From Zygnema cylindricum (taxonomy: Eukaryota > Streptophyta > Zygnematophyceae > Zygnematales > Zygnemataceae): 64,000 bases of DNA. Where the stretch lies: contig JBBHKE010003537.1 of NCBI GenBank assembly GCA_037447655.1, positions 39,144 through 103,143 of the forward strand, read 5' to 3'. Every line of letters starts with the position of its first letter. Position 1 is the stretch's first letter. A program made the translations under genes and the position numbers. Below are positions 10,590-60,707 of this stretch, piece by piece. The notes under the pieces are model-generated. The model was not told where the DNA came from. It saw only the letters and a list, made by a program, of their open reading frames with translations, and made no database searches.

Positions 10590-10634
10590 GTGCCTCCCAC
10601 TAAAAATTCAGCGTCCCGCTGAACCTCAACTGAC

Positions 10635-11974: not shown

Positions 11975-11989
11975 AGGGAAGCAATTTCC

Positions 11990-13693: not shown

Positions 13694-13738
13694 TCGTATT
13701 GTTTAACTCGGTCTGTAACCCCACATACCATTGGTGGT

Positions 13739-15321: not shown

Positions 15322-15439
15322 GACTTCCGGGCCTCTTCGGAAGTCCTTCCAATGTCGTCACTTTCTTTTGAGTCGAATTCGGAGTCCTACTTCTTCCATT
15401 CCTCTGGAAACTCCTTCTTCGCCTCCTCCATTCGCTAGA

Positions 15440-16871
15440 CGACCGCCATAAGAATCGTTTCCCTTTTCTTGAGTGCCTTCTTAAGCTGTAAGGCCAAAAG
15501 TAGGCGCCCCTCTTCCTCTCCCTTACCAGCCGCTTCGCTTTTACCCCAAACTCTTCTTCATCTTTCTTCACTCTCATGGCGCCACTTCTCCAATCGATCA
15601 TCGGGTTCCATTTTTGCAGCCATAGCTTACCCAAGATTACCTCATGGTCCCCAAGAGGTAATACATGAAGCGTGTCATACCATCGAAACTTTCCAATTCC
15701 GACGCGTAACCTTGGAGTACGATGGGTAATTGACAAGGAACTTCCGTCGGCCAATTGTACCGACTGGTGATCTTTTAGCACTACGAGAGGAAGTTTCAAC
15801 CTATTCACCGTGGCCTCATTTATGAAGTTCCACGATGCTCCGGAGTCCACCATGAAGTTAGTTGCGTTTCCTCCGATTTGACCCCGAAATATCAAAGGGT
15901 CTCCTCCTTCTCCGGCTAACCTCATGACATTAAGTTTTCCCTTTTTGGAACCTTTCCATTTTGGACATTCTCGAGCCATATGATCTTGGGAGCCGCACAG
16001 GAAGCATAGGCCATTTTGCCTCCTCCGCTGGAGCTCCTCGCAGATAAGTCATTGGTCTTGGTCTTGGTAGGTTTCTTCTTTCTCCGCAGGACGCTAACCA
16101 CTTCCTTATCCTCCTCAATTGCGCCGAGCTCCATGGGGGTTGGACCATCGTCTCGCCGGTTCCCTCCGCTGCTGCTCGACTCGTATTGATAGGGTCTCCG
16201 AAGGTTAAAGTCGACTGAATCGGTCCGCTCCGCAAACTGGATGATTGCCAAGAGAGTAGGAGTCGTGCTTTCCTGAGCAAGCCACTGTTCCACATCCTCA
16301 CGAATAGATGATTTAAGTCCCTTCACGTAGCGATCCACGGCTTCATCCTCCGTCATCGTAGGTATTTGAACTTTGCACTCCAAGAAACCGTTGCGTAAAC
16401 TCCAAAAACCTAGGTTGGTTGCTTCAATACTGCGATCTTATCTCTTGCCGCCTTCACCGTGTTAACAGGCTGCTAAGCGTCGCAGAGAAGTTGAACGAAA
16501 AGTGCCCATACGGTTAATTTCTCATCGTCCTCCACCAATGTCCTTCACCACGCTCCTGCTGCCCCTTTCAGAAGACCACCCGCGTAGTGAACCTTCTCAG
16601 GGTGTGATAGGCTAGGAAAATTCTCGAGATAGTTCGCAACGGAGAATAGCCATGTGTCAAGGTTCTTGTGTCTTGCAGGGTTAAACTCGTCAAGAAGTCT
16701 TAATTTCAGTCTCCTCAAGTCTCTCTCCATGCCTCCATGAGGTCGCTCTCTAAGACGCAATTCCAAAGCTGCGACGGTGTTGCTCAGCTGCGCGTTCTGT
16801 AATCTAACACTTTCCAGTTCCCTGAGAACTTGCGCTAACATTTCTCTAGTGGATACGCCGTGTTCATCCAT
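15440..16871 (-). pseudogene. Element D gag and protease, broken
   Basis: Gag starts at ATG 16871 (MDEHGVSTREMLAQVLREL), about 33 nt after the primer site, with an N-terminal coiled-coil-like helix. It continues LDTWLFSVANYLENFPSLSH and stops at 16545. The second part (16383-15922) reads DRYVKGLKSSIREDVEQWL and PTPMELGAIEED. A perfect CCHC knuckle, CFLCGSQDHMAREC, is encoded at about 16004-15963. The protease follows, with FMVDSGASWNFINEATV (about 15860-15810; DSGA active site) and GDHEVILGKLWLQKWNPMID. Frameshifts separate the blocks. Gag packages the RNA and the protease matures the particle. Confidence 0.85.
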
Positions 16872-16892
16872 GCTGTCGAGTCACGAGAACTA

Positions 16893-16904
16893 GCTCCGAT
16901 ACCA
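16893..16904 (-). other. Element D primer-binding site (initiator Met tRNA)
   Basis: On the minus strand, one base after the LTR end, the sequence reads TGGTATCGGAGC. It matches the complement of the plant initiator-Met tRNA 3' end (TGGTATCAGAGC) at 11 of 12 positions, with a G that can still wobble-pair. The same G variant occurs in the miniature element at 58723. Confidence 0.85.
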
Positions 16905-16905
16905 G

Positions 16906-17390
16906 TGAAAAAGGGCAGTAATGCACTCAACACGCCACAATGTACAGCGGAAAACACCACGGATCTTCGCGTAGCAACAGTAGGATCACACAGCGCTGAC
17001 ACACAAGGTTGCGCTTTATTACTTGGAAGAGAATACAAGGTTGCGTTCACCGAGAAGATCTAATGGAAGAGTGTCCCATATTCACTAGGCCTACTTGACT
17101 ATTTAAACTAGCTAGCTGCTAGTCAACCTAGAACTGTACAACTGTACACGTGGACCTTCACGGTCAACCCAGACCTATCCAAACATTCTTCTAGAACTAT
17201 ACCGCTCAATCTACATTATGCGGCGTTGCTATGCTCCGCTACTATGTCGCTGCGTTACTAAGTTGCTACACTGCTAAATTGCTATGCTGCTGCGCTGCGC
17301 GGGTCTAGGATCGAAACTGCGCTGCTCTAAAACCGCAACCATAAACCTAGCCCTAGCCACTAAGTACTCAAATCCTGTAACCCTTTTAGA
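16906..17390 (-). repeat. Element D 5' LTR (485 bp)
   Basis: It spans TGAAAAAGGG to CCCTTTTAGA and aligns with 10102-10589. The two differ at scattered positions, so the insertion is not very recent. It contains the same GCTGC/TGCTATG-type cluster (about 17215-17330). GTAAA at 17391-17395 is the right target duplication. Confidence 0.88.
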
Positions 17391-17395
17391 GTAAA

Positions 17396-27726: not shown

Positions 27727-28565
27727 TGTTGTTTTAGAAAGCTTTAGTCCTCTTTATGCCTCAGCTGTGAGGGAGAGAGAGTTGTTGAAGACTTAAGCTA
27801 TTTTTGGTTCAATTTGATTTAGTAGTTACCAAAATTAGTGTGACACTGAAGTTGGGAGTTCACGGTTCATTCACACTTGGGACACGCGTCATCACTTGAG
27901 AGAATGCGTGAGTATGTCCTCTGTGGACGTACATAAATTCAGCAGGACCACAAGACTTCGTGAAGTCAGTTCTACGGTGCCAAATCCTCTAATCAGACGG
28001 CTGACATCCGTCGCCAATAAATACTGACGAGGCGTGACTAGATCACTATCACTTTACGTTGTCTGAACTTCGGTGTACATATTTGGTAGAATAGAACTTT
28101 GTTTGTAGTGAATTAGTTGTTTAGTGTTGAGAATGTGGTTTATGACATACCTTCAGTACACAGGTATACTCACAGTTTTTTATGTTAGAATGTTAGATGT
28201 ACGATTGGAATGCCTCCGTATAGTTTAGTGTAGTTTCGTTGTATAGAAGTAGGACGTAGTGAATTTGATTATTTAGGAACAAATGATATGAAAACTGTAC
28301 ACTCAGTTTTATGTAATTTTATTTCTTCATATCTCACACGTTTAAATGCGGAATTGATTTAAATTTTGTGTGTGTGTTTCTTTATATGTTGTCTACACTG
28401 TTGTATATTTCTAGGACTATTGGAGCATTTTATTTAAAGTTATAGTCTGTCAAATTCGCTGGTCAGCCATCGGTATTTGTGGAAGCTTCCTCTCTTGATT
28501 TGTTCTACGATTACTACTGCTGCAACTTCTTCATCTTCAGTGCCAGCAGTTGTCTCAAAACAACA
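27727..28565 (+). repeat. Copia LTR shared by two elements (839 bp)
   Basis: It begins TGTTGTTTTAGAAAGC after a polypurine tract and ends CAAAACAACA before a primer-site-like AGTCACGGACCC. It is therefore both the 3' LTR of the piece on its left and the 5' LTR of element G on its right. It aligns with the LTR of B (6316-7178). The gag start codon inside it has changed from ATG to ATT (28510-28512). Confidence 0.85.
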
Positions 28566-29280
28566 AGTCACGGACCCGCCTTCACGAATTTCGGTCTTCG
28601 ATGGACGCGAATATCTATTTTGGGCAGATTTGGTTAAGTCTTACTTCAAGCAAGTGAAACTTATTGATGTGTTAAATGGATCACTGGCAGAATCTGGTGC
28701 CACCTTTGATCAGAAAAATGATGCCACCTTTGATGAGAAAAATGACCAGGCTTTGCATTTAGTTAAGCTTATGATATCAAAAGAATTGCATATGACATAT
28801 AATAATGTTAAAAAGGCATCAGAATTATTGGATGCATTGAAATCTTTTTATGTTAAAGCTAGTGACCAGCATGAGATTATAACTACTGGTCAAATCTATG
28901 AGTATAAGTACACAGGTGGTAGCATGGTGGAATACACTAATCAGTTTCAAATGTTACTGTCAAAAATTGCATATTTTGGGGGGACTTTCTCCCCTTATCA
29001 TCAGGCCATGATTCTCCTACAAGGGCTTCCTAATGAATATAAAGAAGCCTCAGATGAAATAAGAAAATTGTCTAAACCTCTTTGGAATTTGCAAACAGCT
29101 ATAGAGTTTATCTTGGTAGAAGAGGCTACTTAGACAGTTTAAGGATTTGCATAACCAGCTGTAGCATGTACGGCTCAATTTCAGAGAGAAATTAGATATC
29201 AAGGGAATTAGTTTAATCCTCAGTTTGAGAAATGTGTTTATTGCTATACTGATGGTCACTCCTCCAGAGCTTACCCTTTC
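28510..29280 (+). pseudogene. Element G gag, start lost
   Basis: The start codon position reads ATT instead of ATG, so gag has lost its start. The body is long and open (to 29133): SRISVFDGREYLFWADLVKS, KASDQHEIITTGQIYEYKYT and LLQGLPNEYKEASDEIRKL. A direct repeat encodes DATFDQKN then DATFDEKN (about 28700-28745), a small internal duplication absent from B. A stop follows at 29131, and the zinc knuckle (CVYCYTDGHSSRAYP near 29236) keeps the first two Cys and the His but has Tyr for the last Cys. Confidence 0.85.
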
Positions 29281-30690
29281 TATATAAAAGCTCTTAAAAC
29301 AGACACCTTTCGGAAAGGATGGAGACACCGCGGCCCTCTCATTTCCCAAAAACCTTCGAATAAAATTGTTGCATTTTCAGCGGAGGATACGGAATTGAAA
29401 AAGAAAACGTCTGAGGAAACGACACCTGATGTGATCAGTTTTTCAAAAATTGATGACAAAGAGTTCTTTGCTCTTGCCAAACTCGACATGATAGAAGGAG
29501 AAAAGGACCTCGGATGGATAATGGATTCCGGCAGCTCTTCACACATGTGCTGGAACAAGTCTTAGTTTAAGGAGATGTCTTTTATTCCTTTACGTCAGAT
29601 CTTTTATGCTTATGGCTATGCCATTAAATCAAATGCAAAACGAAACATAGATCTAGATTGTGTGATAGATGGAAAGGTTGTTAAAAGAACTTTGTATGAT
29701 GTCTTGTATGTTACAAAGTTCAAGAAAAATATGTTTTCTACGTTTGTAGGTGAAAGCAAAGGCTTTGATGTTCTTCAAAAAAATGGCAAGAAAATAGTGA
29801 GCAAGAATGGAAGAGTAGCTCTAGTAGGAACTAGAGGCCAAAACGTTTTGTACCGCATGGACATGGCTAATAAAATTGATTTTGCGTACTCCAGTGTCCT
29901 ATGTGAAAATGTTTTGTGACATAAAAGACTTGGTCATGTGCATCATTAGAGACTTACTAAGATGATAAAGCATGATTTGATAGAGGGAGTCAAGCTTGGT
30001 CAACAAGAGTCTCATGTGTGTGATGGTTGCGCTCTCAAAAAGCTTCACAAGCTTCCCCTATCACAAGTTTCTGATCACCGAGCCACAAATGTTCTTCGTA
30101 TTATTCACTCTGATGTTTTCGGCCCTTCTAAAGTTCCCTCTCTTGGTGGCAGTCGTTTTTTTGTCACCTTTACAAACGATTACTCCCATTATAGTTGCCT
30201 ATACTTCATGAAGGAGAAGATAGAAGTCTTCACTCACTTTAAACACTTCAAAATCTTGGCGGAGAAACCTCACGACAAATCTATTCTTGCTTTAGGGAGG
30301 GATAATGGTGAAGAGTATGTATCTCATGCCTTTGCTAATTATTTGAAAGAAAATAGCATCTCTCGTGAATTTACTGCTCCGTACACACCGGAACAAAATG
30401 GTGTTGCCGAGAGACTTAATTGGACTTTGATTGAATGTGCTCCATCTATGATGGCGTATAAAGGTGTGGATCGAAAGTTTTCGAGGAAGCTTTTCATTGT
30501 GCTTCCTACATCAGAAATTAAGTGGAAACCTGATCTGTTAGGGGTAAGACACCTTATGAAATGTGGACAGGCAGAAAGCCAAATGTCAGTCATTTTAGAG
30601 TTTTTGGTAGCAAATGATTATCTAAGATAATCTTCCTAATTCGAAACTTAGTCCAAAATCTGTACATAGTGTCTTTTTAGGCTATGATGA
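29281..30690 (+). pseudogene. Element G protease and integrase, broken
   Basis: The protease active site reads GWIMDSGSSSHMCWNKS near 29515-29563 and is followed by the same TAG as in B, so this stop may be ancestral to both copies. The next frame (29575-29919) encodes VIDGKVVKRTLYDVLYVTKF and GTRGQNVLYRMDMANK, then a TGA where Trp is expected. The integrase frame (29962-30630) reads CDGCALKKLHKLPLSQVSDH, IHSDVFGPSKVPSLGGSRFF, RDNGEEYVSHAFANYL and PEQNGVAERLNWT. The catalytic Glu of VAER is kept, while DNGGEY is DNGEEY. Frameshifts follow. Confidence 0.85.
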
Positions 30691-32456
30691 TAAATCTGCA
30701 AGTTATAGAGTGTATAATCCTCAGAGAGGATACCTTAAAACTGCCAAGAGTATTCAGATTAAAAAAGAAAGTGAATCTGTTGACGTTTTTAGCATGGATG
30801 CAGCTAAAAGAATGAGAAAATATAAGAGTATATCATTTTTGAGCAGGTACCTTTTACTCCAACCTCTTCTAATTCTTCTACCATCTCTCCCAAATGCCTG
30901 TGGGCAGTCTAATACTCCTTTTGGAGCTGCTCCTTCTGTTGATGCTCCTCCCAATACACGCCCTTTGCGGCAATCTAGGGAACTAACAGTTCTTGCGTCA
31001 GATTTTCCGAGTGAAAAAGGTAAAGCAACCGCCTTCGAGGCGATCGAGTTGAGAGTGCTTTTTCTATAAGGACAAGGGAGCGGCTTACTATTCATGATGC
31101 TTTTTACGTTCCTGAAGAGGATCATTGGATCTCGGCTGGAAATGAAGAGATAAAGTCAATTATGGAAGCCCAAACCTGGGAACTTGTGGAGCTCCTACCG
31201 AACCAAAAAGTTATTGATTGTAAGTGGGTCTTCAAATTAAAATTGAATCTTGATAATACAATTGAGAGACATAAAGCTAGACTGGTGGCTAAGGAATTGA
31301 GCCAAAAGGAGGGAATATATTATGAAGAGACCTTTTCTTCGTGGTTCGCTTTCCTACTGTTAGAGTTTTGCTATCTCTTGTTAAAATAGAGGATATAGAA
31401 TTGCATCAGATGGATGTTAAGACGGCTTTCTTGCATGGTGATTGGGAGGAAGTAATTTATATGAAGCAGCGAGAGATGTTTGTAAGAAAAAGGAAACAAA
31501 ATCTGGTCTCTAAAGTGTTAAAGTCCCTGTATGATCTAAAACAGGCTCCGAGAAATTAAAACCTGAAATTATATGAGTTTTTAACCAATCTTGGCTTTAC
31601 CAGGATCAGTTCAGATCACTTCAGATCACTCAATCTATGTAATGCAATGTGATGATAAAGTGATTTATGTGGCAGTGTATGTAGATGATTTGCTACTGAT
31701 TAGCAAATCCATCAATGAGATTAATAAAATAAAATCAGCTCTGAATTCCCAGTTTGAAATGAAAGACTGGGGTGAGGCTAAGTATATTCTAGGAATTCAA
31801 GTAGAAAGAGACAAGAAACAGAAATTTATTTATTTAACTCAAAAGGAAGCAATCAAGAACATGTTAGAAAAGTTTGGCATGTTAGAAGCAAATGGGAGTG
31901 CCAGTCAGATGGAATTCAGGCAGAAATTGGAGGGCACGAAAACGGATGGTGGTGTTTTGGTTGATGATTTCTTAGATTCGAGGAGGCAGATTCTATGTCC
32001 TCTATTCCTTACAGGCAGATTATCGAAAGCCTTATTTATTTCATAAAATGTACTCGTCCCGACATCGCAGCAACGGTTGGAGCCTTGAGCCGAAGCCTGC
32101 AAAATCCAAGGAAGTCGGACTATGAGGCAGCAAAGTGAGTTCTTCTTTATCTTGTATGAACTCGAAATCTTAGACTCTCTCTCGATAGAGGGGAAGTCAA
32201 AATTCATACATGGAGCGATGCAAGCTACGGAGATAGGCCTAGCCGACGCTCCACCACCGGATACATTTTGAAGATCGGAAGTGGAACTTGCTGTTGGAGC
32301 AACAAACTTCAGAAGGTAACAGCTCAATCTACCATGGAGGCTGAGTACATGGCTGCCAGCTCGGCAGTTAAGGAGTTACTTTGGGTAAATTCTTTTCTCC
32401 AAGAGCTTCTCTTTATGCAATCTAGACCATAGATAGTGTGGTGTGACAATCAAGCA
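30691..32456 (+). pseudogene. Element G integrase tail, reverse transcriptase, RNase H
   Basis: After the integrase tail and a low-complexity linker, the reverse transcriptase begins near 31100 (HWISAGNEEIKSIMEAQTWE). The catalytic Asp block MDVKTAFLHGDWEE is at about 31410-31445 and YVDD is intact (VAVYVDDLLLISKSINEINK, about 31667-31725). A tandem duplication of tcagatcact (31608-31630) causes one frame change. RNase H pieces are readable (SDASYGDRPSRRSTTGYILK-like, then STMEAEYMAASSAVKELLWV) up to the break at 32456. Confidence 0.82.
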
Positions 32457-41262: not shown

Positions 41263-42150
41263 GGAGGGGAGGAGAGGGAAGTGGGAAGAGGGAGAGGGGA
41301 GAGGGAGAGGGAGAGGGAGAGGGAGAGGGAGAGGGAGAGGGAGAGGGAGAGGAGAGAGGGAGAGGGAGAGGGGAGAGGGAGAGGGAGAGGGGAGAGGGGA
41401 GAGGGAGAGGGAGAGGGAGAGGGAGAGGGAGAGGGAGAGGGAGAGGGAGAGGGAGAGGGAGAGGAGAGAGGGAGAGGGAGAGGGGAGAGGGAGAGGGAGA
41501 GGGAGAGGGAGAGGGAGAGGGAGAGGGAGAGGGAGGGGGAGAGGGAGAGGGAGAGGGGAGAGGGAGAGGGAGGGGACGAGGGAGAGGGAGAGGGAGAGGA
41601 AGAAGGAAAGGGAGGGGAAGAGGGAGAGGGAGGGGAAGAGGGAGAGGGAGAGGGGAGAGGGAGAGGGAGAGGGGAGAGGGAGAGGGAGAGGGAGAGGGAG
41701 AGGGAGGGGGAGAGGGAGAGGGAGAGGGGAGAGGGAGAGGGAGGGGACGAGGGAGAGGGAGAGGGAGAGGAAGAAGGAAAGGGAGGGGAAGAGGGAGAGG
41801 GAGGGGAAGAGGGAGAGTGGAGAGGGAGAGGGAGAGAAAAAGTGGAGGAGAGAAAAAGAAGGTTGTCAAATTAGACAAAAATAGAGAGACGAAAAGCCAA
41901 ATCGAATCTGAGGAAGGAAATCCAAGCGGTAAGGAGAGAGAGAGGGGGAGGGAGAGAGAGAGACAGAGAGAGGGGGACGGAGAGAGAGATACAGAGAGAG
42001 GGGGAGGGAGAGAGAGAGACAGAGAGAGGGGGAGGGAGAGAGTAAGACAGAGAGAGGGGGAGAAGGGAGAGAGGGGTGGAGGGAGGGGATGGGAGGGAGG
42101 GAGGGAAGGGGAGGGATGGAGGGAAGGGGAGGGAGGGAGAGGAAAATAAA
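41175..42150. repeat. GA/CT microsatellite tract (about 1 kb)
   Basis: The plus strand is nearly pure (GAGAGG)n and (GA)n with a few interruptions. A block of about 90 bp (aggggacgaggga to aagagggaga) occurs twice, offset by 171 bp (41571 and 41742), so the tract grew by segment duplication as well as slippage. Bases 41940-42130 have a shorter GA and GGGA phase. All long Arg/Glu, Arg/Gly or Pro/Ser frames here come from this repeat. Confidence 0.92.
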
Positions 42151-46040: not shown

Positions 46041-46919
46041 TGTTGTCTTTTTGGAAAGCTTTCAGTCTCAGAGCAGCGCAGCTGCTATACAACAGAGCAG
46101 CGCAGCTGCTATACAACAGAGCAGCGCAGCTGCTATACAGCAGAGCAACTGCTATACAGCAGAGCAGCTGCTATACAGCAGAGCAGCGCAGCAGCAGAAC
46201 AGCGCAGCAGCGAAGCTGCAACACAGACAGGACAAGGGGTGCTATATAGCAGAGCAGCTACTATACAGCAGAGCAGTGCAGCAGCAGAGCAGCTACTATA
46301 CAGCAGAGCAGTGCAGTAGCAGAGCAGCGCAGCAACAGAGCAGCGCAGCAGCGAAGTTGCAACACAGACAGGACAAGGCAACCACGATTATATTTGATAT
46401 TGTCCGTATGGACAACGCAACGTCTGATATTCTTAATGTGATTCTGTACAGGATAGAGCAACTGCGATAGATACGATTCTAGTTAGCTTAGTGATAGCTT
46501 AGTGGTAGCTTAGTGATAGCTCAATGGTAGCTTAACAGATTAGTGGTAGCTTGGTGGTTTGATGTACCTCTCAAATACACTGGTGTTGCCAGTTCAACAC
46601 AAGTCTAAGACTTAGGACTCATAATATATTATGTATCCAGACTTCTTAGTAGTAAAACTGCAAACAGTTTTTGGGAAACTTCTGAGTATTATATCTTGAG
46701 TGTTGTCGGGTCAATTGTGCTATAACTTTGGGAGTTATTAGTGTTTATTCTACTCTATATTCTGATAGAGTTTTGTGAGGTTCGAATGCTTGTATAAGAA
46801 GTGGTGAGCACTTAAGAACAGCTGTTTGGTAGGATTCTTGATAGCTTCTAAGAGTGTATCATGTCTACTTCTAATACTACTGCTGCTCCTCCACCTGCAC
46901 CGGTGGTTGTAGAACAACA
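46041..46919 (+). repeat. Solo copia LTR K (879 bp), family of element J
   Basis: It starts TGTTGTCTTTTTGG and ends GAACAACA. CTCCT precedes it (46036-46040) and follows it (46920-46924), a perfect 5-bp target duplication. It aligns with both LTRs of J. The last 59 bp (46861-46919) are ATG plus the gag N-terminal codons (MSTSNTTAAPPPAPVVVEQ), although no gag body follows. It therefore proves independently that the gag start belongs to the LTR. Confidence 0.93.
46071..46380 (+). repeat. CAGCTG tandem repeats in LTR K
   Basis: Three copies of the 24-bp unit (CAGAGCAGCGCAGCTGCTAT plus ACAA) are followed by 19-bp variants and (GCA)-rich runs. A larger duplication repeats the gaagctgcaacacagacagg block. 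The array is longer than in the LTRs of J (52391-52588 and 57475-57690). Confidence 0.88.
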
Positions 46920-47760: not shown

Positions 47761-48721
47761 AGGGATCCAATCCACATCCACGATCTTTAAGGGTGTGGAA
47801 TATAGGTTTTTAGGGTTGTGTGGCGTCATATGGAGTAGGTTTTCCCTTTCTGTCTAGTTATCTCTGGTGGTTTTGTTTAGTCTTTCCAATTACTCTAGTT
47901 ACCTTTGGCTTTCTCATTCGGTTGCTTTTCTTTATCACCTTTGCCTTTTGTATTCTTCAACTTTTATTTTCCTTTTTGTTACCCCCTTTTTACCTCAATG
48001 GTTTTTTATCGCACTTTATGTAATAAAGTTTCTCACCTCTTTGTACAGTCATCAAAATTATTTTTCGTAATTGATTAATAGTTTAGCTACATTTAGTATG
48101 CTAGTACTATTATTTGTCATTTGGACCGAGTGAATATTTAATAGCGTAGATAAACTATTATTGGAAAAAAACAAAAAGTGTTTGTAACTATATTTTGGGT
48201 TCAATCGCCTAACTTCAACAAAACATTATCTATAATTTAGTAATTTATACTTCTAACTAGTGTTGGGTATCGATGACCTTTTGCTGATATTCGATATATA
48301 CATTGAATTTCATGTACCCGATATTCGATATATCGCTTCGATATATCGAAAATCAAAATATCGCAATATATCGCCGATATATCAATGCATTAAAAAACTA
48401 AAAAAAAAAAATTCACAGGTCTCCAAAGTCACGTGCCTTCGGACAAGGTGACCGTAAAATATTTGCCGAAAAGAAATACGGTTTTTTCCTTAAAGTCAGC
48501 AGAGTGAAGGAGATCTTTGAGGTACATTGATGCCGTACACTTGCGAAGTACACGTACATAATAAGCAAGTACGGATTTCCATACGAAAATGGTCGGTTTT
48601 CAAATCTTTGACGATTTTAAAGATTTGATCGTCAACTTACAAGGAACCACTCAAATCAAAACACGTATGTAAAAACTTGTTTACATACGATACGCGATGT
48701 AACTGAGGCCTCTGTATTACA
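47761..48721. other. Non-coding DNA before the satellite
   Basis: No gene is supported. Bases 47820-48030 are T-rich. Bases 48285-48385 hold a cluster of CGATATATCG and TTCGATAT words. Bases 48490-48710 are again rich in GTAC-type words and a short repeat of tttgacgattttaaagatttg. The satellite begins at about 48722. Confidence 0.6.
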
Positions 48722-51700
48722 TAAATTAAACAAACAGTTAGCGATAACTAGAATTGTTACCTAAATTACACAAACACTTAGCGATAACAAGAATTGTTAC
48801 CTAAATCACACAAACAGTTAGCGATAACAAGAATTGTTACCTAATTACACAAAGAGTTAGCGATAACATGAATTGTTTCCTAACTTTAACAAACAGTTAG
48901 GGATAACAAAAATTGTTACCTAAATTAAAAAAATGTTAGCGATATCAATAAATGTTACCTAACTTACAAAAACTATTAGCGATAACAAGAATTGTTACCT
49001 AAATTACACAAACAGTTAGCGATAACAAGAATTGTTACCTAAATTTCACAAACACTTAGCAATAACGAGAATTGTTCCCTAAAACACACAAACAAGTAGG
49101 GATAATAAGAATTGTTACCTAAATTACACAATAAGTTAGCTATAACTAGAATTGTTACCTAAATTACACAAACACTTAGCGCTAACAGGAATTGTTTTCT
49201 AACTAACACAAATTGTTAGAGCTAATATGAATTGTTATCTAACTTACACAAACTCTTAGCGATAACAAGAATTGTTAACTAAATTACACGAAAATTAGCG
49301 ATTACAAGAATTATTACCTTTGTTACACAAACAATTAGCGATAACAAGAATTTTTACCTAAATTAAACAAACAGTTAGCGATAACTAGAATTGTTACCTA
49401 AATTACACAAACACTTAGCGATAACAAGAATTGTTACCTAAATCACACAAACAGTTAGCGATAACAAAAATTGTTACCTAATTACACAAAGAGTTATCGA
49501 TAACATGAATTGTTACCTAACTTTAACAAACAGTTAGCAATAACAAGAATTGTTACCTAAATTTAAAAACTGTTAGCGATATACATAATTGTTACCTAAC
49601 TTACAAAAACTATTAGCGATAACAAGAATTATTACCTAAATTACACAAACAGTTAGCGATAACAAGAATTGTTACTAAATTTCACAAACACTTAGCAATA
49701 ACGAGAATTGTTACCTAAAACACACAAACAGTTAGCGATAATAAGAATTGTTACCTAAATTACACAAAAAGTTAGCTATAACTAGAATTGTTACCTAAAT
49801 TACACAAACAGTTAGCGCTAACAGGAATTGTTTTCTAACTTACACAAATTGTTAGAGCTAACATGAATTGTTTTCTAACTTACACAAACTCTTAGCGATA
49901 ACAAGAATTGTTACCTAAATTTCACAAACAATTAGCGATAACAAGAATTGTTACCTTAATATCACAAACAATTAGGGATAACAAGAATTGTTACCTAATT
50001 ACACAAACACTTAGCGATAATAGGAATTGTTATCTAAATTACAGAATCAATTAGCAATAATAAGAATTGTTACCTAAATGACACAAACAATTAGCGATAA
50101 CAAGAATTGTTACTAAATTTTACAAACAGTTAGCGATAACAAGAATTGTTACCTAAATTAAAAAAATGTTAGCGATATAAATAAATGTTACCTAACTTAC
50201 AAAAACTATTAGCGATAACAAGAATTATTACCTAAATTACACAAACAGTTAGCGATAACAAGAATTGTTACCTAAATTTCACAAACACTTAGCAATAACG
50301 AGAATTGTTACCTAAAACACACAAACAGTTAGGGATAATAAGAATTGTTACCTAAATTACACAAAAAGTTAGCTATAACTAGAATTGTTACCTAAATTAC
50401 ACAAACAGTTAGCGCTAACAGGAATTGTTTTCTAACTTACACAAATTGTTAGAGCTAACATGAATTGTTTTCTAACTTACACAAACTCTTAGCGATAACA
50501 AGAATTGTTACCTAAATTTCACAAACAATTAGCGATAACAAGAATTGTTACCTTAATATCACAAACAATTAGGGATAACAAGAATTGTTACCTAATTACA
50601 CAAACACTTAGCGATAATAGGAATTGTTATCTAAATTACAGAATCAATTAGCAATAATAAGAATTGTTACCTAAATGACACAAACAATTAGCGATAACAA
50701 GAATTGTTACTAAATTTTACAAACAGTTAGCGATAATAGGAATTGTTATCTAAATGACAAAAACAATTAGCGATAACAAGAATTGCTATATAAATTACAC
50801 AAAAAATTAGCATTCCAAGAATTTTTACCTTAATTACACTAACAATTAGCGATAACAAGAATTTTTACCTAAATTAAACAAACAAGAATGATAACTGGGG
50901 ACCATTCAAATTACACAAACACCGTCGATATGCTAATCATAACCCAAATCAAAAAAATACCTGAATGCTAACTGTTACCCACCACATAAACAACATGATA
51001 CCAGGAAGTATTAAATTACACAAATATAATGCTAATTGGTACTCAATGAACAAATAACTAATGATAACAGAACTGACCTAATTAAACAAACTGTTAGCGA
51101 TATCAATAATTGTTACCTTACTTACAAAAACTGTTATCGAAAGCAAGAATTGTTACCTAAATTACACAAACAGTTAGCGATAACGAGAATTGTTTCCTAA
51201 ATTACACAAACAATTAGCGATAACAAGAATTGTTACCTAATGACACAAACAGTTAGCGATAACAGGAATTGTTATCTAAATTACACAAACAATTAGCGAT
51301 AACAAGAATTGTTACCTAAATTACACAAACAATTAGCGATAACAAGAATTGTTACCTAAATTACACAAACATATAGCGATAACAAGAATTGTCACCTAAA
51401 TTACATAAACAATTAGCGATAAGAAGAATTGTTACCTAAATCACAAACACTTAGCGATAACTAGAATTGTTACCTAAAACACACAAACAGTTAGCGCTAA
51501 CAGGAGTTGTTATCTAACTTACACAAATTGTTAGAGCTAACATAAATTGTTATCTAACTTACACAAACTCTTAGCGATAACAAGAATTGTTACCTAAATT
51601 TCACAAACAATTATCGATAACAAGAATTGTTACCTTAATAACACAAACAATTAGCAATAACAAGAATTATTACCAAAATTACACAAACAATTAGCGATAC

Positions 51701-52360
51701 CAAGAATTGTTACCTAAATTACACAAACAGTTAGCAATAACAAGAATTGTTATTTAAATAACACAAAAAATTAGCGATAACAAGAATTGTTCCATAAATT
51801 ACACAAAAAATTAGCGATTACAAGAATTAATACCTTAATTACACAAACAATTAGCGATAACAACAATTTTTACCTAAATTAAACAAACAGTTAGCGATAT
51901 CTAGAATTGTTACCTTATTTACACAAATACTTAGCAATAACAAGAATTGTTACCTAAATCACACAAATAGTTAGCCATAACAAGATTTTTTACCTAATTA
52001 CACAAACAGTTAGCGATAACACAAATTTTTATCTAAATTACACAAACAATTAGCGATAACAAAAATTGTTACCTAAATTAAACAAATAGTTATCGATAAC
52101 AAGAATTGTTACCTAAATTATAGAAACATATAGCGATAACAAGAATTGTCACCTAAATTACACAAACAGTTAGCGATAACAAGAATTGTTACCTAAATTT
52201 CACAAACACTTAGCGATAACGAGAATTGTTACCTAAATCACACAAACAGTTAGGGATAACAAGAATTGTTACCTAAACTACACAAAAAGTTAGCGATAAC
52301 TAAAATTGTTACCTATATTACACAAACAGTTAGCCCTAACAAGATTTGTTATGTAACTTA
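48722..52360. repeat. 40-bp satellite array, left block
   Basis: About 90 copies of a 40-bp unit are present, consensus ACACAAACAGTTAGCGATAA followed by CAAGAATTGTTACCTAAATT. Unit lengths vary by 1-3 bp. Within each unit TTAG-CGA-TAAC and GTTA-C-CTAA form an imperfect inverted repeat around AAGAATT. Variant units recur at 636-638 and 596-597 bp, so higher-order repeats exist. About 200 bp (50880-51075) are very diverged. Copia J interrupts the array at 52360. Confidence 0.95.
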
Positions 52361-53127
52361 TGTTGTCTTTTTGGAAAACTTTCAGTCTCAGAGCAACGCA
52401 GCTGCTTTACAGACAAAGCAGCGCAGCTGCTATACAGACAAAGCAGCGCAGCTGCTATACAAGAGAGCAGGGCAGCTGCTATACAGCAGCGCAGCTGCTA
52501 TACAGCAAAGTAGCCGCTATTCAGCAGAGCAGCTGCTATACAACAGAGCAGCGTAGCAGCGAAGTTGCAACACAGACAGGACAAGGCAACCACGATTATA
52601 TTTGATATTGTCCGTATGGACAACGCAACGTCTGATATTCTTAATGTGATTCTGTACAGGATAGAGCAACTGCGATAGATACGATTCTAGTTAGCTTAGT
52701 GATAGCTTAGTGGTAGCTTAGTGATAGCTCAATGGTAGCTTAACAGATTAGTGGTAGCTTGGTGGTTTGATGTACCTCTCAAATACACTGGTGTTGCCAG
52801 TTCAACACAAGTCTAAGACTTAGGACTCATAATATATTATGTATCCAGACTTCTTAGTAGTAAAACTGCAAACAGTTTTTGGGAAACTTCTGAGTATTAT
52901 ATCTTGAGTGTTGTCGGGTCAATTGTGCTATAACTTTGGGAGTTATTAGTGTTTATTCTACTCTATATTCTGATAGAGTTTTGTGAGGTTTGGATGCTTG
53001 TATAAGAAGTGGTGAGCACTTAAGAACAGCTGTTTGGTAGGATTTTTAATAGCTTCTGAGACTGCATCATGTCTACTTCTACTACTACTGCTGCTCCTCC
53101 ACCTGCACCGGTGGTTGTAGAACAACA
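52361..53127 (+). repeat. Element J 5' LTR (767 bp)
   Basis: It begins TGTTGTCTTTTTGG and ends GAACAACA. It contains CAGCTG repeats (52391-52588), five TAGCTTAGTGGTAGC-type words (52690-52765) and the gag ATG at 53069. Compared with the 3' LTR it is very similar outside the repeat array. Confidence 0.93.
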
Positions 53128-53908
53128 CGTTATGGGCTTGTCATCAAGAATTCCTATCTTTTTTGGGGATAAGTATGTTTACTGGGCGGATATGGTGGAA
53201 ACAAATTTTGAAAATGTCAATCTTTTAGATATATTGGATGGTTCGCTGGATGAATCTGATCCGTCATGGTCTAAAAAAAATACGCAAGCTCGGTCTATTC
53301 TGAAATTTTGTATATCTGAGGACTTAGCTATGTCTCGGATAAAGATGAAAAAAGGAATTAATATATGGAAATATTTTAAAAGTGATTATGAAAAGGCCAA
53401 TGTCCAGGAAAAGCTTCTATTGGCTGGAAAAATTTGGGACTATAAGTACACTGGCAATACAATTGCAGAATATTCTAACAAATTTCGTATCCTTATAGAT
53501 GCACATGCTTGTGCATATGGGGTGTTTCCTCCTTTTCAATAGGCAGCATTGCTCATGAGGGGTCTCCCTCGTAGTATGAAAGGAGCATCTGACATACTCA
53601 AACAAAAAGATAAAGCTAGCTGGAATTTACAGTTAGCCATCAATATTTTACTAGAGGAGGAAGCTACATCTAATATTCTCAATGTTGAGCAAGTAGAAGC
53701 TTTTAATTCACACTTTGAGAGAAAAGGACAGTTTAATCAGCAAAGAAATCAGTATAATCAGTTCACACATTTTAATCAAGGTGGAAATAGACAATCCAAC
53801 AATGCATGCTTTTATTGTAGTGAAAGAGGTGATAGATACAAATTTTGTCCTAAACTTAAAAAAGCTAACGATATTGGTTTATACCGGCCGGGATGGCAAC
53901 AAAGCTAG
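53069..53908 (+). pseudogene. Element J gag, two stops
   Basis: Gag starts in the LTR at 53069 with MSTSTTTAAPPPAPVVVEQH, and continues VMGLSSRIPIFFGDKYVYWA across the LTR end and primer site. Downstream it reads EKANVQEKLLLAGKIWDYKY and LQLAINILLEEEATSNILNV. An in-frame TAG (53540-53542) interrupts after PFQ, and the frame ends at TAG 53906-53908 where element I has Gln. The zinc knuckle reads CFYCSERGDRYKFC: both Cys pairs are there but the His is Asp. The family has one continuous Gag-Pol frame, so these stops truncate the polyprotein. Confidence 0.88.
53128..53142 (+). other. Element J primer-binding site, half-tRNA type
   Basis: The bases after the LTR are CGTTATGGGCTTGTC. GTTATGGGC matches the complement of the initiator-Met tRNA anticodon arm. 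It is inside the gag frame (codons for VMGLS). The LTR end is fixed independently by the 3' LTR and by solo LTR K. Confidence 0.65.
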
Positions 53909-54849
53909 TTTTACAAAGACTTCACGGGGACTACACTTCGTGGAAATGCACTATTTTCGACTTCTTCGTCTCTCCAAGACGAGAATTTGACGGTTTCTAC
54001 AGAGGACAATACGGATCTATTCGCTATGGCGGCTGCAATAGAGGGCACGAAGGACCCCGGATGGATAATGGATACAGGAGCGTCAGCCCACATGTGGTGG
54101 AACAAGGCCATCTTCAAAAATCTGAAAGCAACGCCGGAGAAAAATATTTACTATGTTGTGGAATGAGTGTCCAAACTCGTGCTGTGGGTGATGTGTCCTT
54201 ACTAGTTGATATAGAAGGAAAAGCAATTGAAAGAACTCTTCACAATGTCTTATTTGTGCCTGACTTTAAGAAAAATCTGTTTTCTACGTTGTTGGTAGAG
54301 AGCAAAGGCTTTGAGGTTAATTTGAAAAATGGTCGGCAAGTTGTTAGCAAAAATGGCAAGGTTGCGGTTACAGGTACTAGAGATAGTAGCAAGATGTATC
54401 GCATGGATATAGCTTATACCAAAGAGAATGATGTTTTGTACTCCGGTGTTTTACACTCAGATGAGTTGTGGCATAAAAGATTAGGCCATGTTAATTATGA
54501 TAGTTTGAGGAAAATGGTCATTGCTGGAAAAATAGAGGGTGTATCAATCACAGATGGGCCCGTCAAAACTTGCGATGGTTGCGCTTTAGGCAAAATCCAC
54601 AAATTGCCATTTCCTAAGGAATCTGAGCATCGGTCAACGAAACTTTTACAACAAATTCATTCGGATATCTTTGGTCCGGTGAAGGTTCCATCTGCCGGAG
54701 GGATGAAATATATGGTCACCTTCATAGATGATTTCTCCAGGTTTACAAAAGTTTACTTCATGAAGGAGAAGAGTGAAGTGTTTGGTCACTTCAAACACTA
54801 TAAAGCATGGGCTGAAAAACTTGATAATACATCTATTTTACAGCTCTGA
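53909..54849 (+). pseudogene. Element J protease and integrase start
   Basis: The protease active site (GWIMDTGASAHMWWNKA, about 54060-54110) lies in a different frame from the following block, so one frameshift occurs before about 54150. From there GMSVQTRAVGDVSLLVDIEG, VESKGFEVNLKNGRQVVSKN and ELWHKRLGHVNYDSLRKM lead into CDGCALGKIHKLPF, an HHCC-type zinc region. The first integrase block FIDDFSRFTKVYFMKEKSEV is intact. A TGA at 54847-54849 stands where Arg is expected just before SDNGGEY. Confidence 0.88.
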
Positions 54850-55692
54850 TCGGACAATGGTGGTGAATATACATCGAAAGAATTTGAAACCTTTTTACTC
54901 GAGGAAGGCATTAGTCATCTATTGACTATTTCATATTCACCGGAACAAAATGGGGTGTCGGAAAGGTTGAATAGAACTCTCACGGAAAGCTCTAGATCTA
55001 TGCTCGCAGATAAAAATGTGTATATGAAATTCTGGGCTGAGGCTCTAAATTGTGCAGTTTATATTAAAAATAGGATAGGATCAAGATCGGTAGAAACAAC
55101 TCCTTACGAAATCTGGACAGGTAGCAAACTAGATGTTAGCCATTTCAAGGTCTTTGGTAGTCAATGCTTTATATTGGATACGTCTACAGATAAATGGAAA
55201 ATGGAACCGAAGGGATTACCGGGTATTCTGTTAGGATATGATGATCACTCGAAAGGTTATAGAGTCTTTCTGTTTGAAAGGCAGAAAATAGTTGTAGCTA
55301 GAAACATCATTGTTAAGGATGAACTAGACTCCATAGATTTATTTCAAATGACAGAGCAGCAAAAGCAACAAAAAGTACAGAAGTATGTCATCTTAGATTG
55401 CATGCATAAAATTGTCCCGCAGATTCCACAAACTCCGGTAATGACTCCGGCCTTAGACTCTATCCAACTTCCTCACCAACTTCAGGTCCAGACGGACCAA
55501 GAGCAGTCAATACACACGGATTGCAACCAGCGCAATCACGAACACACGGATTGCAACCAGCGTAATCAGCAAGACACGGATCGCAACCAGCGCAATCAGC
55601 GCAATGCGCGACATCCAACGATCTCAACCTCAGAATTTCCGGGGGGAAGAAGATCAAGCAGCCGCCTGCAAGCAAGCTCTCACTTTGCCTAA
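54850..55692 (+). pseudogene. Element J integrase core and linker
   Basis: The same frame continues with SDNGGEYTSKEFETFLLEEG and PEQNGVSERLNRTLTESSRS, so the second Asp and the Glu of the D-D-E triad are present. FWAEALNCAVYIKNRIGSRS and YEIWTGSKLDVSHFKVFGSQ follow, then the integrase tail (LGYDDHSKGYRVFLFERQK). The linker to the reverse transcriptase contains a 30-bp tandem repeat (HTDCNQRNHE units). The frame ends at TAA 55690-55692. Confidence 0.88.
55515..55605 (+). repeat. 30-bp coding repeat in J pol linker
   Basis: Three units encode HTDCNQRNHE, HTDCNQRNQQ and DTDRNQRNQR in frame. The repeat sits between integrase and reverse transcriptase, where the family has a variable linker. A, B, C and G show no such repeat. 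Confidence 0.85.
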
Positions 55693-57287
55693 TCGGCAGT
55701 CTCAGGGGAGCCCTTGACCATCCAAGAGGCCTTCTCATCACCAGAGCGGAATCACTGGATTGAGGCGGCAAACGACGAAATGAAGTCGATCATGGAGGCT
55801 GAAACATGGGAGCTCGTGGACCTTCCTCCAAACCGAAAAGCGATCGGCAGCAAATGGGTATTCAAGGTGAAGTTAAATCTTGATAACACCATTGAACGCT
55901 ATAAGGCTAGACTTGTGGCGAAGTGGTACAATCAAAAGGAAGGAATCGATTTTGAAGAAATATTTTCTTCGGTTGTAAGATTTCCAACAGTTAGGATTTT
56001 GCTGTCCTTAGCTGCTATAGAAGATATGGAAATTCATCAGATGGATGTAAAAACGGCTTTTATGCATGGAGAACTAGAAGAGACCATTTACATGCAGAAG
56101 CCTGAAAAGTATGTGTAACCACGAAAAGAGCACTTAGTATGCGAGTTGCTAAAATCTTTGTACGGCCTAAAACAGGCCCCCAGACAGTGGAATATAAAGC
56201 TTGATGAATTCTTGACTAGTCTAGGATTTCAAAGGATAGGTTCTGATCACTCTGTCTACGTTCTAAAGGGTGAAAATGGGATAGTGTATATAGCAGTATA
56301 TGTAGATGATTTGCTATTAATTAGCAAATCTATGGCTAAAATAAACAAAATCAAAACTGCTCTAAACTCACGGTTCGAGATGAAAGACCTCGGTGAGGCA
56401 AAATATATTTTGGGTATCCAAGTAGAGAGGGACAGAAATAAGAAAATAATAAAATTGACTCAAAAAGAGGCTATTGGAAACATGTTAGAAGAGTACGGAA
56501 TGCGGGGGGCAAAAGGATGTTTAACTCCAATGGAGTTTCGGCAGAAGTTAGAGGGAGAAGAGACAGAACCAGGTGTCATTGTTAGCGAGTATTTAGAATC
56601 AGGGGAGAATGATCCTATGACAATAATACCTTATAGACAGATAGTGGGAAGCTTAATATACTTCATGAACTGTACCCGTCTCGACATTGCTGCAGCAGTC
56701 GTGGTACTGAGTAGGAGTCTAGAAAATCCGAGAAAATCTGATCTTGATGCAGCAAAGAGAGTCTTAAGATATTTGGCAAGAACTAAAGATCTCAAACTCA
56801 CTCTAGGCGGAGGAGAAGTCAAGCTGCAAACATGGAGTGATGCAAGCTATGGCGACATGCCAAGCCGGAAATCCACCACGGGATTTGTTCTACAAATTGG
56901 GAACGGTACTTGCTCTTGGAGCAACAAACTTCAAAAGGTTACATTACAGTCGACAATGGAGTCAGAATATATTGCAGCAAGCTCGGCCCTCAAAGAACTC
57001 TTATAGGGTAAAATCCATGTTACAAGAACTAGGATACATGCAAGCTGGTCCACAGGTGATCGGGTGTGATAACCATGCTGCCATTGTCATTGCTTCTAAC
57101 CCGAGTCATCACTTCAAAAGCAAGCACATGGATGTACGATTACACTTTGTAAGAGAAAAGGTGTACTCTAGAGTGATTAAATTATGTTATTTGCCAGATG
57201 CAAAAATGATTGCTGATATGCTCACTAAATCCCTTCCTACTCCTTAGCTGAAGTATTGTAGGGACGCAGTGAGATTAAGTGAATAGT
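55693..57287 (+). pseudogene. Element J reverse transcriptase and RNase H, stops only
   Basis: It is in frame with the integrase part. It reads HWIEAANDEMKSIMEAETWE, GSKWVFKVKLNLDNTIERYK and HQMDVKTAFMHGELEE (catalytic Asp), then TAA at 56116-56118. It resumes LLKSLYGLKQAPRQWNIKLD and YIAVYVDDLLLISKSM (YVDD intact, about 56301-56312). RNase H shows TWSDASYGDMPSRKSTTG, STMESEYIAASSALKEL and, after TAG 57004-57006 and a frame change, IGCDNHAAIVIASNPSHHFK; the Asp, Glu and Asp residues are present. The end reads CRDAVRLSE then a stop at 57283-57285. Confidence 0.88.
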
Positions 57288-57445
57288 TGAATTGCTGCAG
57301 TGCTATACTGCCACTCTGCGATAATTCCACCATTGTGAGGTAGTGGGACTAGGTGACTTGCTAATTGCTATATTGCTATGCTGCGATGCTGCGCTAGTTT
57401 ATCACCGCAGCTGCGCCGGGATACTGAGTCTAAAGCTTTAGGGAG

Positions 57446-58228
57446 TGTTGTCTTTTTGGAAAGCTTTCAGTCTCAGAGCAGCGCAACTGGTTTACAGACA
57501 AAGCAGCGCAGCTGCTATACAGACAGAGCAACGCAGCTGCTATACAACAGAGTAGCGCAACTGCTATACAGCAGCGCAGGTGCTATACAGCAGAGCAGCC
57601 GCTATAGAGCAGAGCAGCTGCTATACAGGAGAGCAGCGCAGTAGCAGATCAACGCAGCAGCGAAGCTGCAACACAGACAGGACAAGGCAACCACGATTAT
57701 ATTTGATATTGTCCGTACGGACAACGCAACGTCTGATATTCTTAATGTGATTCTGTACAGGATATAGCAACTGCGATAGATACGATTCTAGTTAGCTTAC
57801 TGATAGCTTAGTGGTAGCTTAGTGATAGCTCAATGGTAGCTTGACAGATTAGTGGTAGCTTGGTGGTTTGATGTACCTCTCAAGTACACAGGTGTTGCTA
57901 GTTCAACAGAAGTATAAGACTTAGGACTCATAACATATTATGTATCCAGACTTCCAATTAGTAAAACTGCAGACAGTTTTTGGGAAACTTTTGAGTATTA
58001 TATCTTGAGTGTTGTCGGGTCAATTATGCTATAACTTTGGGAGTTATCAGTGTTTATTCTACTCTATATTCTGATGGAGTTTTGTGAGGTTTGGATGCTT
58101 GTATAAGAAGTGGTGAGTACTTAAGAACAGCTGTTTGGTAGGATTCTTGATAGTTTCTGACAGTGTATCATGTCTACTTCTACTACTACTGCTGCTCCTC
58201 CATTTGCACCGGTGGTTGTAGAACAACA
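57446..58228 (+). repeat. Element J 3' LTR (783 bp)
   Basis: It has the same ends as the 5' LTR. It contains ATG and gag codons (58169-58228) directly before the satellite resumes. Its CAGCTG array (57475-57690) differs in length and phase from that of the 5' LTR. Confidence 0.93.
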
Positions 58229-58493
58229 ACTTCCACAAATTGTTAGAGCTGACATGAATTGTTATCTAACTTAAACAAACTCTTAGTGATAACAAGAATT
58301 GTTACCTAAATTTCACAAACAATTAGCGATAAGAAGAATTCTTACCCTAATAGCACAAATTATTAGCGATAACAAGAATTAATACCTAAATTACACAAAC
58401 AGTTAGTGATAACAAGAATTGTTACCTAAATTAAAAAAATTGTTAGCGATAACGTGAATTGTTATCTAACTTATAAAAACTTTTAGCGATAAC
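58229..58493. repeat. 40-bp satellite, middle block
   Basis: Six to seven units lie between element J and the miniature element. The left edge restores the phase broken at 52360. The right edge ends agcgATAAC, the left target duplication of the miniature element. Confidence 0.93.
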
Positions 58494-58722
58494 TGTTGGA
58501 TTGGCACGTGAAGCCGGTCCAATACGGGGTAGAATATGGAAATATCCATACTCGAGTCGCCCGTAATAAATGGGTACGGACCCGCCAGTCTCAACATCGA
58601 GCTGGTGGCACAGTGGTAGTGCGTTCGCAGCTGAAGTGAAAGGTCCCAGGTTCGAACCCTGGCCGGCTCAATTTTCCCAAGTGTGGGACATGCCGAATCC
58701 CGGATTTCTAGGAAATCTAACA
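58494..58722 (+). repeat. TRIM 5' LTR (229 bp)
   Basis: The LTR holds about 105 bp of leader (58494-58598), the 72-nt tRNA-like unit (58599-58670), a T4 run (58672-58675) and about 47 bp to CTAACA. The inverted ends are TGTTGG/CTAACA. Confidence 0.93.
58599..58670 (+). tRNA. tRNA-like cloverleaf in TRIM 5' LTR (CTG loop, likely not a working tRNA)
   Basis: The unit folds as a complete cloverleaf: acceptor GAGCTGG/CCGGCTC with one G-T pair, D stem GCAC/GTGC with loop AGTGGTA, anticodon stem TTCGC/GTGAA, T arm CCAGG-TTCGAAC-CCTGG, then A as discriminator. The A box TGGCACAGTGG and B box GGTTCGAACCC match Pol III promoter consensus, and TTTT follows two bases later. The anticodon loop AGCTGAA would place CTG (Gln) at 34-36, but base 33 is G, not the nearly invariant T. 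So it is probably a tRNA-derived Pol III promoter and not a translating tRNA. No CCA is encoded, as usual in eukaryotes. Confidence 0.8.
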
Positions 58723-58736
58723 TGGTATCGGAGCCA
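58723..58736 (+). other. TRIM primer-binding site (initiator Met tRNA)
   Basis: TGGTATCGGAGCCA matches the complement of the initiator-Met tRNA 3' end at 13 of 14 positions. It starts at the base after the LTR. The single difference (G for A) is the same as in chromovirus D. Confidence 0.9.
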
Positions 58737-58768
58737 GCGGGATTGCGGATGGTTTGACCGGCTTTCCC

Positions 58769-58779
58769 GTGAGGGGGGG
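58769..58779 (+). other. TRIM polypurine tract
   Basis: GTGAGGGGGGG lies directly before the second LTR, the expected place for plus-strand priming. Confidence 0.85.
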
Positions 58780-59007
58780 TGTTGGATTGGCACGTGAAGC
58801 CGGTTCAATACGGGGTAGAATATGGAAATATCCATACTCGAGCCGCCCGTAATAAATGGGTACGGACCCGCCAGTCTCAACTCGAGCTGGTGGCACAGTG
58901 GTAGTGCGTTCGCAGCTGAAGTGAAAGGTCCCAGGTTCGAACCCTGGCCGGCTCAATTTTCCCAAGTGTGGGACATGCCGAATCCCGGATTTCTAGGAAA
59001 TCTAACA
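58780..59007 (+). repeat. TRIM 3' LTR (228 bp)
   Basis: It is identical to the first LTR except for two substitutions (ccggtcc/ccggttc and gagtcgcc/gagccgcc) and one missing base (caacatcg/caactcg). It is followed by the right ATAAC. Confidence 0.93.
58884..58955 (+). tRNA. tRNA-like cloverleaf in TRIM 3' LTR
   Basis: All 72 bases are identical to the unit at 58599-58670, including A box, B box, CTG loop with G33 and the T4 run (58957-58960). The three LTR differences all fall outside this unit. Confidence 0.8.
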
Positions 59008-60707
59008 ATAACAAGAATTGTTACCTAAATTACACAAACTGTTAGCGATAACAAGAATTGTTACCTAAATTGCACAAACAATTAGCAATAACAAGAATTG
59101 TTACCTTAATTACACAAAGAATTAGCGATAACAAGAATTGTTACCTATATTACACATATAGTTAGCGATAAAAAGAATTGTTACCTAATTACACAAACAT
59201 TTAGCGATAATATAAATTGTTACCTAAATTACACAGTCAATTAGCAAAAACAAGAATTGTTACCTAAATTTCACAAACAATTAGCGATAACAAGAATTGT
59301 AACCTAATTTACACAAACAGTTAGCGATAACAAGAATTGTTACCTAAATTACACAAACAGTTAGTGATAACAAGAAATTTACCTAAATTTCACAAACAGT
59401 TAGCGGTAACAAGAATTGTTACCTAAATTACACAAACATTTAGCGCTAACACAAATTGTTATCTAAATTACACAAATTGCTAGAGCTAACATGAATTGTT
59501 ATCTAACGTACACAAACTCTTAGCGATAACAAGAATTGTTGCCTAAATTACACAAAAAATTAGCAATAACAAGAATTGTTACCTTAATTATACAAATAAC
59601 TAGCGATAACAAGCATTGTTACCTAAATTATACAAACAGTTAGTGATAACAGGAATTGTTACCTAAATTAAACAATCTCTTAGCAATAACAAGAATTGTT
59701 ATCTAAATTACAAAAAAAAATAGCGATAACAAGCATTGTTACCTAAATTACACAAACAGTTAGCAATAACAAGAATTTTTACTTTAATTACACAAATAAC
59801 TAGGGATCACAAGCATTGTTACCTAAATTACACAAACAAATAGCGTTAACAAGAATTGTTACCTAAATTACACAAACAGTTAGCGATAACAAGAATTGTT
59901 ATCTAAATTACACAAACAATTAGTGATAACAAGAATTGTTACCTAAATTACACAAACAATTAGCGATAACAAGAATTGTTACCTAAATTTCACAAACAGT
60001 TAGCGATAACGAGAATTGTTACCTAAATTACACAAACAGTTAGCGATAACAAGAATTGTTTCCTAAATTACAAAAACAGTTAGCAATAATAAGAATTGTT
60101 ACCTAAATTACACAAACAGTTAGCGATAACAGGAATTGTTATCTAAATTACACAAATTTTTTGAGCTAACATGAATTGTTATCTAACTTACACAAACTCT
60201 TAGCGATAACAAGAATTGTTACCTAAATTGCATAAACAATTAGCGATAACAAGAATTGTTGGCTTAATTACAAAAACAATTAGCGATAACAAGAATTGGT
60301 ACCTAAATTACACAAACAGTTAGTGATAACACGAATTATTACCTAAATTAAACAAACTGTTAGCGATAACAAGAATTGTTATCTAACTTACAAAAACTTT
60401 TAGCGATAACAAGAATTGTTACCTAAATTACACAAAAACTTAGCGATAACAAGTTTTGTAACCTAAATTACACAAACAGTTAGTGATAACAAGAATTCTT
60501 ACCTCAATTACACAAACTATTAGCGATAACAAGAATTGTTATCTAACTTACACAAACAGTTAGCGATAACAATAATTGTTACCTAAATTACACAAACAGT
60601 TAGTGATAACAAATATTGTTTTTTAAATTAAACAAACTGTTAGCAATAACAAGAATTGTTATCTTACTTTCAAAAACTGTTAGCGATAACAAGAATACTT
60701 ACCTAAA
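59008..60707. repeat. 40-bp satellite array, right block
   Basis: About 42 units of the same 40-bp repeat, somewhat more regular than the left block. The array ends at about 60707, in taccTAAAGTAGGGACG, where it joins a copia 3' end directly. Confidence 0.93.

Follow-up and report, generated by a model that had tools for sequence, protein, structure and literature searches.

Structure of the element and of its insertion site

The window, i.e. the whole 64-kb stretch of Zygnema cylindricum DNA that was analysed, harbours a 514-bp element of the TRIM type at 58494-59007. Only one such locus is seen, and no further copy of the element was found elsewhere in the window. The features that delimit it are as follows.

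58489..58493, + strand: left copy of the target-site duplication ATAAC, inside a 40-bp satellite
58494..58722, + strand: 5' LTR, 229 bp, TGTTGG...CTAACA (from LTR comparison)
58723..58735, + strand: primer-binding site (PBS) TGGTATCGGAGCC, directly adjoining the end of the 5' LTR
58769..58779, + strand: polypurine tract (PPT) GTGAGGGGGGG, G-rich, with a T as its sole interruption, abutting the 3' LTR
58780..59007, + strand: 3' LTR, 228 bp, TGTTGG...CTAACA (from LTR comparison)
59008..59012, + strand: right copy of the target-site duplication ATAAC

The first-pass annotation of this DNA had described a miniature LTR retrotransposon here, and its anatomy is borne out. The two LTRs differ only by two transitions (58519 C/58805 T and 58557 T/58843 C) and a 1-bp indel, base 58596 of the 5' LTR being absent from the 3' LTR. 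They enclose an interior of 57 bp, which leaves no room for a retrotransposon gene. The Met-tRNA primer site claimed directly after the first LTR does start there with TGGTATCGGAGCC, which is presumably of the plant initiator-Met type. In the same way, the G-rich polypurine tract claimed directly before the second LTR ends at the LTR boundary. A PBS after the 5' repeat and a PPT before the 3' repeat are the arrangement expected of a TRIM, and the dimensions of the element (514 bp, LTRs of 229 and 228 bp, interior of 57 bp) agree with the definition of TRIMs given in PMC6934838 (less than 1000 bp, with terminal direct repeats of 100-250 bp).

The perfect ATAAC duplication and its location within a satellite, also pointed out in that annotation, were verified by excising the element in silico. 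The two flanks (100 bases each, 200 bases once joined) align without any gap to the 40-bp satellite unit and the phase of the satellite is restored.

Repeats surrounding the element

Copia- and Gypsy-type domains abound in the window. A Copia-type stretch comprising an LTR and the first gag codons occurs three times, at 46296-46919, 52497-53127 and 57601-58228, in copies that are about 93-94% identical and have spacings of 6208 and 5101 bases; their left ends were set by the query and may extend outward. The three look like an LTR-interior-LTR-interior-LTR chain. Two arrays of the 40-bp satellite are found at 48717-52351 and 58234-60707, the second of which starts about 60 bases past the ATG that opens a truncated Copia gag and appears to have replaced the remainder of this Copia element. 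No clear source of the satellite unit was found in the neighbouring Copia copy (53000-57700). Two further regions, 6445-9837 and about 27856-31248, lie approximately 21.4 kb apart, have many exact 30-mers in common, both carry Copia-type gag and integrase domains and probably stem, as two copies, from a single Copia family. GGAGAG-type arrays occupy 41271-41836 and 41933-42141, the 871-base stretch 41271-42141 being 96% purine.

Other sequence collections were also searched. The element has no blastn match among plasmids and phages, and its exact patterns gave 0 matches in viral, bacterial and archaeal contig collections, which hold no plant or fungal genomes, so that these misses say little. 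The pattern of the 40-bp satellite unit likewise gave 0 matches in the viral contig collection, which may omit kin of the window. The pattern of the Copia reverse transcriptase of the window matched five stretches of the viral contigs, none of which was confirmed as a relative.

A tRNA-like unit in each LTR

Each LTR contains a 72-nt sequence that has the features of a tRNA.

58599..58670, + strand: tRNA-like unit of the 5' LTR, 72 nt (ARAGORN, Gln, anticodon ctg; Rfam tRNA)
58884..58955, + strand: tRNA-like unit of the 3' LTR, same sequence as in the 5' LTR (ARAGORN; Rfam tRNA)

These are the only two tRNAs that ARAGORN calls in the 64-kb window (both 'Gln', anticodon ctg), and at the gathering threshold nothing else in this window matches any Rfam family. 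They score 53.6 bits against the tRNA family, where 29 are required, with an E value of 9.9e-9 over the window. All four stems are paired. When the 3' LTR was shuffled with preservation of its dinucleotides, none of 5000 sequences yielded an ARAGORN tRNA, whereas the same command recovered the unit in both real LTRs used as a positive control. The folding energy of the isolated 72-mer is unexceptional (z of -0.66; 48 of 200 shuffles are at least as stable); the case thus rests on the combined sequence and structure pattern of a tRNA and not on stability. This ordinary stability is the one point in favour of a chance cloverleaf or of an assembly artefact. The Rfam E value and the absence of any tRNA among the shuffled LTRs lead to the rejection of a chance cloverleaf, and the clean duplication and the restored satellite phase add to the evidence against either explanation, the probability of which is negligible. 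The cloverleaf previously noticed in each LTR is thus upheld. With the Rfam threshold relaxed to E values up to 1, tRNA is still the sole family reported within 58494-59007, which rules out 5S rRNA or another Rfam family as the source of the LTR unit.

The first-pass annotation went further and proposed a full tRNA-like gene unit. The cloverleaf and the Pol III signals (see below) are indeed present, but production of a working tRNA is improbable. The anticodon loop reads AGCTGAA and has a G at position 33, where working tRNAs nearly invariably have U33; decoding by this RNA is therefore unlikely. That the LTRs might hold a working Gln-CTG tRNA gene, the element thereby spreading decoding tRNAs, would fit the complete cloverleaf, its fully paired stems and the anticodon called by ARAGORN. 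Given G33, this explanation was rejected and would now seem highly improbable; moreover, according to Kojima 2024 (PMC10886601), a capacity to encode tRNAs is predicted for only a few bivalve and fungal families of Helenus, the group of TRIMs with tRNA-like LTRs discussed below.

The position of the unit is the same in the two LTRs, and the 126 bases of the stretch around it are identical between them. In LTR retrotransposons, a single RNA template yields both LTRs of a new copy. Therefore, short of gene conversion between the LTRs, the unit was already present in the parent element. This rules out, with the same proviso, a late insertion of a tRNA or SINE into this copy, one of the outcomes that the annotation had named as fatal to its claim. 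It is compatible with an older event, in which a tRNA-derived SINE or a tRNA gene would have entered the LTR of an ancestor and would later have been copied to both LTRs. The arguments concerning this origin leave it about evenly poised. A 5-bp CTCAA sequence flanks the unit (58590 and 58667), but a SINE would usually leave a duplication longer than 5 bp, the right copy extends into the acceptor stem and the unit lacks a long A- or T-rich tail. Such an origin was proposed for Helenus by Kojima 2024 (PMC10886601).

Pol III-type signals around the unit

Several sequences resembling signals of RNA polymerase III (Pol III) lie in or next to the units.

58592..58594, + strand: CAA triplet of the 5' LTR, first base 7 nt before the unit; Pol III is predicted to start here
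58606..58616, + strand: box A-like sequence TGGCACAGTGG in the unit of the 5' LTR
58649..58659, + strand: box B-like sequence GGTTCGAACCC in the unit of the 5' LTR
58672..58675, + strand: TTTT of the 5' LTR; putative minimal Pol III terminator
58878..58880, + strand: CAA triplet of the 3' LTR, first base 6 nt before the unit
58957..58960, + strand: TTTT of the 3' LTR; the genomic RNA is predicted to end here

Judged against the consensus sequences of the two boxes, TGGCACAGTGG fits box A (minus an optional base) and GGTTCGAACCC fits box B. The TTTT located one base downstream of each unit is the sole run of at least four T in its LTR, and the 514 bp contain no others. In shuffled sequences, a TTTT falls within 6 nt downstream of the unit in 1.8% of cases and a CAA falls in the 10 nt before it in 13%; the placement of the TTTT is thus suggestive, that of the CAA is not. 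Among the tRNA genes of flowering plants, according to PMC11700998, 36-45% have a CAA in the 10 nt that precede them, 22-32% have TATA motifs and 67-73% are followed by a poly(T) whose length starts from 4 and averages 5.0-5.4. The four T found here are therefore the shortest length given in that source.

Taken together, these signals point to a tRNA-derived Pol III promoter that probably drives the element from within its LTRs. The alternative is that Pol II transcribes the TRIM from U3, so that the unit would be either a passenger or a cis signal of the leader (packaging, primer handling or escape from small RNAs) instead of a promoter. Each LTR has an AATAAA that precedes the unit (58565 and 58851), which speaks for Pol II, as does the view of Kojima 2024 (PMC10886601), who terms ordinary TRIMs TRIMp2 and calls the use of Pol III by Helenus unproven. 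Conversely, no match to TATAWA was found in either LTR, hence none upstream of the unit, and an intact box A and box B with a single TTTT one base past the unit suit Pol III better. Transcription by Pol II is accordingly considered rather unlikely, although it keeps an appreciable share of the probability.

Proposed transcription and mobilization

If the unit does act as a Pol III promoter, the lifecycle of the element can be pictured as follows. Pol III would start at the CAA at 58592 in the 5' LTR, would frequently read through the minimal four-T signal of this LTR and would stop at the TTTT of the 3' LTR (58960), giving an RNA of 369 nt (58592-58960). The tRNA-like unit with its signals would then constitute R (84 nt at the 5' end of the RNA and 83 nt at its 3' end), so that the 5' LTR would be partitioned into a U3 of 98 nt, this R and a U5 of 47 nt. 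Reverse transcription would be primed by initiator tRNA-Met, as judged from the presumed type of the primer site. The enzymes of a helper autonomous LTR retrotransposon would copy the RNA and integrate the product with a 5-bp stagger. The predicted 369-nt RNA is more stable than 200 mononucleotide shuffles (z of about -4), which are a lax control.

The TTTT that follows the first unit could equally end the RNA after 84 nt, and such an RNA would be useless as a template for a new element. In a more specific, tentative proposal, the unit would make up the whole repeated end R, the 369-nt Pol III RNA would bear the same cloverleaf at both ends and a leaky first terminator would choose between an 84-nt tRNA-like RNA and a copyable genome. 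The exact limits given above for R are put forward with similar caution. As the CAA and the sole TTTT of each LTR bracket the unit, both ends of the RNA are predicted to the base, which is deemed the fresh part of this model. If the model is true, the element illustrates how an LTR retrotransposon may come to be rebuilt around a tRNA gene. Its small size, its near-identical LTRs and the presence of one TTTT per LTR make the question of a full-length Pol III RNA directly testable.

Concerning the primer, the longest exact match by which the tRNA-like unit could pair with the PBS is 5 nt, a value equalled or exceeded in 1281 of 2000 shuffles; self-priming by the tRNA-like unit of the LTR was thus rejected. 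Concerning the helper, the window also contains a degenerate Gypsy-type element (10102-17392, minus strand) in which the Pfam domain SH3_Tf2-1 scores above the cut-off and Chromo slightly below it. One base after its 5' LTR lies TGGTATCGGAGCTAG, 14 of the 15 bases of which are equal to the primer site of the TRIM. These two elements hold the only sites of the window with at most two mismatches to the primer sequence, and none was found in 100 shuffles of the window. A translation of the interior of the Gypsy-type element in one frame meets many stops. Such an element may possibly represent the type of the helper. Initiator-Met primer sites are common in plant LTR elements, which makes a common primer site weak evidence for a helper. 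What the match does show is a primer common to two different elements, from which it does not follow which autonomous family moves the TRIM.

Comparison with Helenus, Cassandra and SINEs

The first-pass annotation presumed that a TRIM bearing a tRNA-like unit would be a novelty. This does not hold: TRIMs with tRNA-like LTRs were named Helenus by Kojima 2024 (PMC10886601), who also designates TRIMs of this type as TRIMp3 and reports them from Pucciniales, some Agaricomycetes, six animal phyla and one plant, Selaginella moellendorffii. Among the matches listed in a search of the open-licence literature, PMC10886601 is the only one whose title or first abstract lines announce TRIMs with tRNA-like LTRs.

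Of five features of Helenus that were compared, four are found in the element of Zygnema and one is found in part. Helenus elements carry a tRNA-like sequence in each LTR that is not complementary to the PBS, measure 311-1263 bp and, in plants and fungi, are flanked by 5-bp duplications (PMC10886601); here, ARAGORN and Rfam detect the unit in both LTRs, its pairing with the PBS is no better than in shuffles, the length is 514 bp and ATAAC lies on both sides. The partial agreement concerns the promoter boxes, as most Helenus families have a box A with TRGCY and YGG and a box B with GGTTC (PMC10886601), whereas the element matches YGG (as TGG) and GGTTC but has TGGCA in place of TRGCY, the Y being unmatched. 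A PBS and a PPT, which Helenus elements also have, are likewise present. These data make it very likely that the element is a Helenus-type TRIM (TRIMp3), non-autonomous and mobilized by the enzymes of another element. The only plant family described, Helenus-1_SMo of S. moellendorffii, has an LTR of 120 bp, an interior of 85 bp and a 5-bp duplication (PMC10886601). The element studied here (LTR of 229 bp, interior of 57 bp) differs from it in these lengths. It therefore probably belongs to another family, if it belongs to a family at all, and may represent a second Helenus family in plants.

Elements of this kind inflate the counts of annotated tRNA genes (Table 2 of PMC10886601). The annotation of Isoetes sinensis, for which PMC10541799 gives 8,975 tRNA genes, could hide Helenus-like elements, which is a lead and not a result.

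The parallel with Cassandra that the annotation had drawn, with a Pol III-type unit resembling a tRNA in place of the 5S unit of each LTR, is supported. According to PMC7215508, each LTR of the Cassandra TRIMs of land plants contains a promoter and a terminator for Pol III, as is predicted here. In the account of Cassandra included in PMC10886601, transcription begins within the 5S unit of the 5' LTR and finishes within the 5S unit of the 3' LTR, the same unit-to-unit course as that proposed here, with an end repeat of 18 bp versus the 83-84 nt predicted for the Zygnema element. The nature of the unit also differs, since Cassandra carries a 5S rRNA sequence whereas Rfam reports tRNA alone in the present LTRs. 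SINEs derived from tRNAs (SINE2) have a tRNA-derived Pol III promoter as their head. The element thus has a Pol III-type head sequence in common with them, but its unit lies within LTRs that are accompanied by a PBS and a PPT and is devoid of a long A- or T-rich tail. It adds one more case to the few LTR elements that have a promoter of the Pol III type.
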